64,000 nucleotides of DNA, taken from assembly GCA_029261855.1 (NCBI GenBank), contig JAJDAN010000017.1, forward strand, positions 1-64,000. Direction: 5' to 3'. This stretch comes from Deltaproteobacteria bacterium. Its GTDB lineage: Bacteria > Myxococcota_A > UBA9160 > UBA4427. The translations under genes were made by a program, and so were the position numbers. Below the pieces are notes generated by a model. It did no database searches. It was not told where the DNA came from and was given only the letters and a program-made list of their open reading frames with translations. The stretch's first letter is position 1, and each line of letters begins with the position of its first letter. Positions 27,176-32,509 of this stretch are shown one piece after another.

Positions 27176-27751
27176 ATGAAGAGATTGCAGGGCAAGCGCA
27201 CCGAGGGTTTCACCCTCATCGAGCTGATGATCGTGGTTGCGATCATCGGAATTCTGGCGGCCATCGCCATTCCGAACTTCCTCCGCTTTCAGCTGAAGGC
27301 GCGGAGCTCGGAAGGCAAGGTCAACGTTGCAGCCATCCGCACCGCTGAGGTGGCTTACAACTCTGAGTTCGCCACCTACATCCCGGCTCTTGCTTCGCCG
27401 GTTGCGCTTCCCGTCGGGAAGGTGCCGTTCGTGAACAACACCGCCGGTCTGGGCTTCGACATCCTGGGCTGGGCGCCCGAGGGCAGCGTGTACTTCCAGT
27501 ACACGACCGTCACCAATGCCGCTGCGCCGCTGCCGTCGAACGCCTACACGGTGACCGCCCAGGCGGACATCGACCAGGACGGTGCCGTGCTCCAGAGCTG
27601 GGGCTACGTGAAGGCAGCTCCCGGCACGGTCGTTGGCGTCGCGGGCCCCGGTTGCGCCAATACGGGCGTGTGGGACTCGGTGGCCGGTGCGGCCACGCTG
27701 ATCGACACGGTCGGTCCGTGCAACGCGACGTCTGGCCAGAGCGACTTCTAG
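27176..27751 (+). CDS. pilA: Type IV pilin 1 (major pilin candidate)
   Basis: Prepilin of 191 residues. The leader MKRLQGKRTEG is followed by FTLIELMIVVAIIGILAAIA, so PilD cleaves after the Gly and the Glu at mature position 5 is present. The long N-terminal helix is classic type IVa. The globular part contains YNSEFATYIPALASP and a C-terminal region with two cysteines (GPGCANTGV and TVGPCNATSG), a likely D-region disulfide. AAGGAAA lies 7 nt before the ATG. It has its own sigma-54 promoter, and a strong hairpin follows the stop, so it is probably made at a high level relative to the genes downstream. Confidence 0.93.
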   Translation: MKRLQGKRTEGFTLIELMIVVAIIGILAAIAIPNFLRFQLKARSSEGKVNVAAIRTAEVAYNSEFATYIPALASPVALPVGKVPFVNNTAGLGFDILGWAPEGSVYFQYTTVTNAAAPLPSNAYTVTAQADIDQDGAVLQSWGYVKAAPGTVVGVAGPGCANTGVWDSVAGAATLIDTVGPCNATSGQSDF

Positions 27752-27904: not shown

Positions 27905-28480
27905 ATGAAGCTCCGAGCTCGGCGAGACGGCGGTTTTACCATGCTCGAACTGATGATCGCCGTGGCCATCATCGGCACCCTGGCGGCGGTCGCGATTCCC
28001 TCCTTCCGCAACTACCAGTGGAAGGCGAAGCGAAGCGAGGCCTTCACCAATCTCGGAAGCCTGGCCAAGACCCAGAAGGCCTATTTCGGCTCCTCCGAGG
28101 TGTTCCTCACCGTTCCCATCGGTGAGCCCGGCCTGACGCTCGGCAACGTCCCCACCGATTCTCCCCGCGACAGCGCGGCCGTGGCGACTGCGTTCGCCAC
28201 GATCGGCTGGGCGGCAGAAGGTCAGGTCTACTTCGACTACGACACCAACACGCCCGCCGGCATCGGCGGCTGCGCCTGTGTCGGCCAGTGCTTCACGGCG
28301 AGCGCCTACGGCGACATCGACGGTGACCTCGGCATGAGCGCGATCATGTACGTGCACCCGGACGCGGGAGGCGGCACCTGCACGTCGTCGATGTTCGGTT
28401 ACACGACGCCGATCGACGCCAATGCACTGCCCATCTTCGATCAGGTCGCGGCCAACCGCGGTGCCGCGGACGACTACTAG
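27905..28480 (+). CDS. Type IV pilin 2 (pilin-like)
   Basis: A 191-residue second prepilin, leader MKLRARRDGG then FTMLELMIAVAIIGTLAAVA. Cleavage Gly and Glu5 are conserved. The body shares segments with pilin 1 (GWAAEGQVYFDY versus GWAPEGSVYFQY; DIDGDLGMSAIMY versus DIDQDGAVLQSWGY), so it arose by tandem duplication. It has more cysteines (GGCACVGQC, TCTSS), suggesting a different fold stabilisation or a minor pilin role. GGGAG lies 8 nt before the ATG. No sigma-54 promoter of its own was found; it probably depends on read-through past the hairpin. A hairpin element begins at its stop codon. Confidence 0.9.
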   Translation: MKLRARRDGGFTMLELMIAVAIIGTLAAVAIPSFRNYQWKAKRSEAFTNLGSLAKTQKAYFGSSEVFLTVPIGEPGLTLGNVPTDSPRDSAAVATAFATIGWAAEGQVYFDYDTNTPAGIGGCACVGQCFTASAYGDIDGDLGMSAIMYVHPDAGGGTCTSSMFGYTTPIDANALPIFDQVAANRGAADDY

Positions 28481-31418: not shown

Positions 31419-31497
31419 GTACGCGTTGATGACGCGGTGCGCCGGGTGTGCGCTGGCTAGGCGCTGAAGTAGCGTCGCGCGAGAGGAGGGGGTGGGG

Positions 31498-32364
31498 GTG
31501 GAGTCGATGGCCTGGGTCGGGTTCGCGTTCGCGTACGGGCTCGCGATCGGCTCGTTTCTGAACGTCGTCGTCTATCGCCTTCCGGCAGGTCTGTCGATCG
31601 TGTCGCCGGGATCGCGCTGCCCCGCCTGCGGTCACGCGATCACCGCGCGAGACAACATCCCGGTGCTCTCGTATCTACTGCTGCGCGGTCGTTGCCGGCA
31701 CTGTGCGGCGCGCATTTCGGCTCGCTACCCGGCGGTCGAACTCGCCACCGGGATCGTCTTTGCTGCGGTGGCCTGGCGCTTCGGCGAAAGCTGGATGACC
31801 CCGCTCGGCGCACTCTTCGCTGCGGCGCTGATTGCGGCAGCTCTCATCGACTTCGATCACCAGATCATCCCCGACGAGATCTCGCTCGGGGGGCTGGCCG
31901 CGAGTCTCGTGCTGGCGCCGGCCGCGCGCGTCCTGGACGCGGGCATCGGCGTCGCCGGATAGGGGGGCGCTCTCGCCGAGAGCGCTCTCGGCGCGCTGCT
32001 GGGGGCCGGCCTGCTGTGGTCCGTCGGCTTCTTCCACGCGCGGCTCTCCGTTGCCCTGGGCCGCACCTTCTCGCACTGGCCCGGAGAGGGCGAGGAGGTG
32101 CCGCGCTTCGCGAGCGCGGACTACTGGCTCTGGTTCCCGGGCCTCGGGCTCGGGGACGTCAAGCTGCTGGCCATGATCGGGGCCTTCCTGGGACCTTGGG
32201 GCGTCCTCGAGACGATCCTCTCGGCGTCGTTGCTGGGGCTCTTGCTGGGGCTCGGCTGGGCGGCGGCGACCCGAAGCCTGAGCGCTCCGTTCGGATTCGG
32301 GCCGGCGATCGCCGCCGGAGCCCTGCTGTCCCTGCTGTTTCCGCTGCGGGGTTGGCTGCTGTGA
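31498..32364 (+). pseudogene. pilD: Prepilin peptidase interrupted by an in-frame TAG
   Basis: One continuous reading frame encodes a whole type IV prepilin peptidase except for a TAG at 31960-31962. Before the stop: GLAIGSFLNVVVYRLPAG, the zinc-type cysteines CPACGHAI and CRHC, and the first catalytic aspartate region LIDFDHQIIPDEI. After it: GLGLGDVKLLAMIGAFLG with the second catalytic aspartate (GxGD) and the last helices. The domain is split between its two active-site aspartates, so the short product should be inactive. Neither a frameshift nor a good internal start with ribosome-binding site was found. GTG 31498 has GAGGAGG eight bases upstream. TAG ends other genes here, so general recoding is unlikely. 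A sequencing error, a recent nonsense mutation or programmed read-through are the options. Confidence 0.82.
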
Positions 32365-32434: not shown

Positions 32435-32509
32435 TTCCCCGGTCGTCTAACGGCAGGACAGCGGACTCTGAATCCGCGAATCGAGGTTCGAATCCTCGCT
32501 GGGGAACCA
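32435..32509 (+). tRNA. tRNA-Gln (anticodon CTG)
   Basis: It starts TTCCCCGGTCGTCTAACGGC and ends with TGGGGAA and encoded CCA. The acceptor stem TTCCCCG/TGGGGAA has one G-U pair. The anticodon stem GCGGA/TCCGC is perfect and the loop CTCTGAA gives CTG. The T-arm GAGGTTCGAATCCTC is canonical. It lies just beyond gltX, which is convergent. Confidence 0.95.

Follow-up and report, generated by a model that had tools for sequence, protein, structure and literature searches.

The only prepilin peptidase gene of a draft Myxococcota genome is interrupted by a single in-frame TAG, and our preferred reading, which we hold with a little more confidence than doubt, is that this gene is a recent, isolated null allele. 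The gene lies in the window, the 64,000-nucleotide stretch of DNA analyzed here, and the genome comprises 6.96 Mb in 91 contigs at 98.6% completeness. Translation of positions 31498–32364 on the forward strand gives 288 residues in which the TAG at codon 155 (31960–31962) is the sole internal stop and, that codon apart, the frame encodes, to judge by its sequence, the whole of a PilD-type prepilin peptidase of class A24, predicted to cleave and methylate prepilins.

The PilD frame and its internal stop

The features of the gene and its immediate surroundings are as follows.

31492, 31498 and 31507, forward strand: candidate PilD starts (GTG, GTG and ATG), with AGGAGG at 31484–31489
31498–32364, forward strand: PilD frame (Peptidase_A24 and A24_N_bact) with one interruption, from translation and profile matches
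31618–31704, forward strand: CxxC...CxxC zinc/methyltransferase motif (C41, C44, C66 and C69), 5' of the stop
31849–31851, forward strand: putative first catalytic aspartate, D118, 5' of the stop
31960–31962, forward strand: in-frame TAG, codon 155, in the turn between predicted helices 126–148 and 154–186
32098–32364, forward strand: the only downstream in-frame open reading frame from a common start (GTG), 88 amino acids, without helix 154–186
32146–32157, forward strand: GLGD (GxGD; G217-x-G219-D220) with the putative second catalytic aspartate, D220, 3' of the stop
32436–32509, forward strand: ordinary tRNA-Gln, anticodon CTG, not a suppressor, directly 3' of the peptidase

In profile searches residues 13–95 matched A24_N_bact (E=3e-37), and Peptidase_A24 was covered by two adjoining halves, the piece before the stop accounting for profile positions 2–47 and the piece after it for positions 46–104; the whole-genome search likewise scored both pieces as a single gene with "1 TAG" inside. 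Because neighboring pieces in the same frame match consecutive parts of one family, the split frame is no chance effect. The first-pass annotation had described a PilD complete in one frame, with the cysteines and D118 before the TAG and the GxGD aspartate D220 after it, and both translation and profiles agree; the context of the stop, GGA TAG GGG GGC, also reads letter for letter as it was given there. The catalytic role of D118 and D220 is one that we assign from established knowledge of the family, and the four zinc cysteines are invariant in an alignment with relatives. The A24_N_bact domain, the cysteine motif and the two aspartates place the gene among the bacterial prepilin peptidases (PilD, A24), with the TAG at 31960–31962 breaking what would be a continuous open reading frame. 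Its likeness to the PilD/XcpA-type peptidases (MEROPS family A24, Pfam PF06750 and PF01478) extends to domain order, the four-cysteine motif, both aspartates and the predicted polytopic helices, whereas it differs from them in the in-frame TAG and in four extra codons, which lie in the turn behind the helix following the first catalytic aspartate. An AlphaFold model of the read-through frame, with one arbitrary residue replacing the stop (mean pLDDT 91, pTM 0.88), puts the stop position at the start of helix 154–186, just past a short turn. For the peptidase, a Foldseek search of the PDB returned nothing at E ≤ 0.001, and neither a profile search of PDB sequences nor an NCBIfam search gave a match.

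Copy number, dependent systems and relatives

The idea, raised when the stop was first noticed, that another peptidase serves in place of this one found no support in the whole-genome search, which yielded the TAG-bearing gene as the one Peptidase_A24 match in a 98.6%-complete genome and no second enzyme as a substitute. The machinery that would need such an enzyme is extensive. We found 12 N-methylation (prepilin) leaders, on contigs C11, C17 (the window contig), C21 and C86, together with three long matches and shorter paralogues of the assembly ATPase, three platform-protein genes (six domain matches) and four secretins, none of them interrupted. Two prepilin-like genes stand upstream of the peptidase.

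27194–27751, forward strand: prepilin-like gene with an N-methylation leader at 27194–27271, a presumed substrate
27920–28480, forward strand: second prepilin-like gene with a leader match at 27920–27997, a presumed substrate

The first-pass annotation had seen these two leaders and an otherwise intact pilus block, and both observations hold, the second also at the distant pilus and secretion loci. Its view of the pilus block was right about the prepilins of the window but too narrow, as most of the machinery for pili and secretion is encoded elsewhere, on contigs C11, C21 and C86. PilD processes pilins and type II pseudopilins alike (PMC13170266, PMC9765573), and from this established role and the single copy it follows that all four prepilin loci depend on the window enzyme. 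Since one enzyme serves at least four prepilin loci (12 leaders), its loss would be expected to carry a cost.

The Peptidase_A24 family occurs in 81 of 91 same-class genomes with about 100 matches, in which the only stop is that of the window gene; the peptidases of the other 80 match-bearing genomes are all free of stops, and no further stop was found in a nearer set of 61 genomes searched separately. Comparison of the codon in relatives, a check proposed at the outset, leaves the TAG unique to the window gene, with no relative split. The peptidase is ∼57–76% identical to proteins from related Myxococcota and Deltaproteobacteria MAGs, the nearest being IP29b_bin.86 of the same genus (∼76% identical in the peptidase protein). 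All 61 residues that are invariant in 46 relatives are kept, 29 before the stop and 32 after it, and against the nearest relative dN/dS is ∼0.23 before the stop (dN 0.156, dS 0.681) and ∼0.15 after it (dN 0.127, dS 0.829). Averaged over the 45 other relatives, the amino acid distance across the distal half comes to 0.316 here, and the intact nearest relative gives 0.320, a difference of −0.004 (95% CI −0.037 to 0.029). A test for pseudogene decay found neither relaxed selection nor further lesions, and a distal half evolving no faster. Given the retained invariant residues and this unaccelerated distal evolution, any loss must be very recent; with no sign of decay, the sequence comparison suggests a stop that arose very recently, is an artifact, or is in some way tolerated.

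The stop site and the decoding of TAG

Three elements characterize the site itself.

31942–31977, forward strand: inter-helix turn, four codons longer than in nearly all relatives in the alignment
31967–31985, forward strand: inverted repeat GCGCTCTCG / CGAGAGCGC, 1 nt between the arms
31974–31993, forward strand: perfect 20-bp palindrome CGCCGAGAGCGCTCTCGGCG, within the pilD coding frame

The segment from G132 to G165 is 33 residues long here, whereas 39 relatives have 29 and the remaining 7 have 30, and the turn that holds the stop varies in sequence among relatives while its length is nearly fixed; judged from this alignment, the TAG lies inside a 4-codon insertion peculiar to this lineage, or at its edge. 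The palindrome starts twelve nucleotides 3' of the stop, is the only perfect 20-bp palindrome of the window (16 such occur in 1.65 Mb of the genome) and is absent from the codon listings of relatives. It is overlapped by the inverted repeat and by an imperfect direct repeat, GCGCTCTCGCCG (31967–31978), which recurs at 31982–31993 with 11/12 agreement, and a G6 run adjoins. No template for the bases around the TAG was found as an exact match of ≥12 nt in 1.65 Mb. In IMG/VR an exact 18-mer beside the site occurs in 10 stretches, but when the surrounding 2 kb was compared with them by BLAST just one matched, along 52 bases, so that none of the ten contains this gene. In E. coli, template-switch mutation is reported to concentrate at quasi-palindromes (PMC7202029), and the coincidence of the stop with a 4-codon insertion and a rare palindrome makes a mutation hot spot plausible here.

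The same surroundings would suit an error. That the TAG is a base-call or consensus fault of the draft assembly, the living organism having an intact pilD, is a serious possibility to which we nevertheless give clearly less than even credence. A GC-rich inverted repeat, a G6 run and GGC motifs are all at the site, and Illumina miscalls have been reported after inverted repeats and GGC motifs (PMC3622629); an error would also fit a gene under full purifying selection before as well as after the stop, an enzyme present in one copy while the several systems relying on it are intact, and relatives that are all stop-free. Against it, the consensus looks clean, with no other interruption in 171 domain matches or in a 1.65-Mb TAG scan, GGC by itself is a weak predictor of miscalls (PMC3622629), and a random miscall leaves the adjoining 4-codon insertion unexplained. 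The palindromic G-rich context is compatible with a real local mutation and with an error alike; we infer that the adjoining insertion shifts the balance somewhat toward a real local event, the palindrome having been noticed post hoc. Besides its expected cost, three points count against the null allele: in a 91-contig draft one wrong base would look identical, the nearest relative is only ∼76% identical in the protein, and the inserted bases have no template found in 1.65 Mb.

Readings in which the TAG is decoded fare much worse. A coding-potential scan trained on domain-verified genes and covering 1.65 of the 6.96 Mb, which sought frames broken by a stop but with coding signal before and after it and no start codon nearby, returned one TAG interruption, the window peptidase. 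Internal stops were likewise absent from all 171 domain matches inspected (adh_short, 116; ABC_tran, 55), which marks the window stop as an isolated event. The terminators of 969 confident genes in the 1.65 Mb are TAG in 328, TGA in 609 and TAA in 32, in line with the earlier judgment that the code is not globally changed. No tRNA with a CTA anticodon was found among 47 tRNA places (Rfam model, ARAGORN), a search that a very unusual tRNA could escape; RF1 is in the genome, the best PylS match reached 22.6 bits against a cut-off of 178, and the RNA 3' of the stop folds no differently from shuffled sequence (z = −0.10). A suppressor tRNA or pyrrolysine was rejected on the missing CTA tRNA and the sub-threshold PylS, and a read-through hairpin on a fold energy no better than that of the shuffles.

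Occasional read-through of the amber codon, giving a low level of full-length peptidase perhaps as a form of control, had been among the options first listed and now appears improbable. Conservation of the entire distal half and a possible hairpin 4–5 nt 3' of the stop speak for it, but the tRNA, RF1, PylS and folding results all disfavor it, as do the frequent use of TAG as a terminator, the absence of the stop from every relative and the lack of any other TAG-interrupted gene in 1.65 Mb. Still more doubtful is a regulated, leaky amber in which a stable zinc-domain short product, perhaps the methyltransferase alone, would be made beside an occasional read-through peptidase; were it true, there would be just enough peptidase for piliation to be rare or noisy in the population. 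We regard as very unlikely a two-piece enzyme, split at the inter-helix turn and assembled in the membrane: the stop does fall at a length-variable turn between predicted helices, a tolerant spot in a membrane protein, but the first in-frame ATG, GTG or TTG after it is the GTG at 32098, 46 codons on, whose product would miss helix 154–186, and a conserved split was sought in relatives and rejected, none having a split peptidase. That TAG is a sense codon genome-wide, through a changed code or pyrrolysine, is barely credible, since its only support is a frame conserved on both sides of the stop and it is opposed by the 328 of 969 genes that end in TAG, by 1.65 Mb free of any other TAG interruption, and by the tRNA, RF1 and PylS results.

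The scan also picked up a number of UGA sites, their frames thioredoxin-fold-like or related, in a genome that has a tRNA-Sec (L067:3323–3421), which suggests that the scan is capable of detecting true recoding. The window gene resembles UGA-selenocysteine and UAG-pyrrolysine recoding in having an in-frame stop in a conserved frame, and differs from programmed recoding in that its stop is a UAG shared by no relative, the search for a matching tRNA came up empty and PylS is below the cut-off. A new mechanism of decoding has no support.

The UGA sites are of interest in their own right. Probable selenoproteins of peroxiredoxin/thioredoxin-like type with UGA-xxC lie at L165:17424 (+), L080:14689 (−), L204:12198 (+) and L202:12301 (+), the sites on contigs C21, C32, C34 and C89 reading GHW-U-PYC, GHW-U-PFC, HFG-U-LFC and AVW-U-PPC. 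About 900 bases from another UGA candidate, L165:16517 (+) on contig C21 has an in-frame UGA in VPL-U-PVCHQT, which we take to resemble the selenocysteine site of glycine/proline reductase-type selenoproteins, and L167:1038 (+) on the same contig, a possible selenoprotein, has UGA in CLF-U-IDANSAVG within an AhpD/carboxymuconolactone-decarboxylase-like frame. Separately, near L218 position 3029 (contig C34) a run of ∼15 C follows a TAG in intergenic-looking sequence, an unusually long homopolymer that is possibly prone to slippage or assembly faults.

A candidate null allele and its meaning

Recent loss and sequencing error are what remain of the explanations first offered, an overall interpretation that is borne out in part. 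For the recent null allele that we prefer, the premature stop removes the second catalytic aspartate and all helices from 154 on. The base taken as real, the allele would have arisen in an inter-helix turn whose G-rich, palindromic sequence is unstable, presumably by a template-switch-like local mutation that created the in-frame TAG. Translation would then stop at ∼154 residues, and the product, a zinc domain with the first catalytic aspartate, would be missing both the second aspartate and the helix beyond the turn and should have no peptidase activity. Carrier cells would fail to process pilins and type II pseudopilins, and would have neither pili nor type II secretion. Selection by phages that depend on pili or secretion, or a pilus-free life, could maintain such an allele.

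There is repeated precedent for this kind of lesion. In Ralstonia solanacearum BIMs, phages have selected pilD loss-of-function alleles that include frameshifts and premature stops (PMC9765573), and PO4-resistant mutants of Pseudomonas aeruginosa include a pilD frameshift and a 12-bp, 4-residue duplication (PMC13170266). The latter duplicates F184–V187 between the catalytic aspartates D149 and D217 and delays prepilin processing (PMC13170266), so that, like the insertion in the window, its four residues lie between the two catalytic aspartates. In these phage-selected alleles a lesion of the single pilD impairs or turns off both pili and type II secretion, and null pilD alleles are an ordinary outcome under phages that need either. 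Those alleles were selected in the laboratory from known parents, whereas the window allele comes from a natural draft genome and its selective cause is one that we infer.

Under either the null allele or an assembly error, what is known of the genetic code is unchanged, and an error would usefully illustrate how a consensus can go wrong at a GC-rich palindrome. A real base would make the gene a natural and very recent knockout of the enzyme behind several surface filaments and secretion systems, a field counterpart, in an uncultured myxococcal lineage, of the phage-selected laboratory pilD mutants. It would also serve as a warning, as pili would be overpredicted in this organism by anyone inferring pathways from the genes present.
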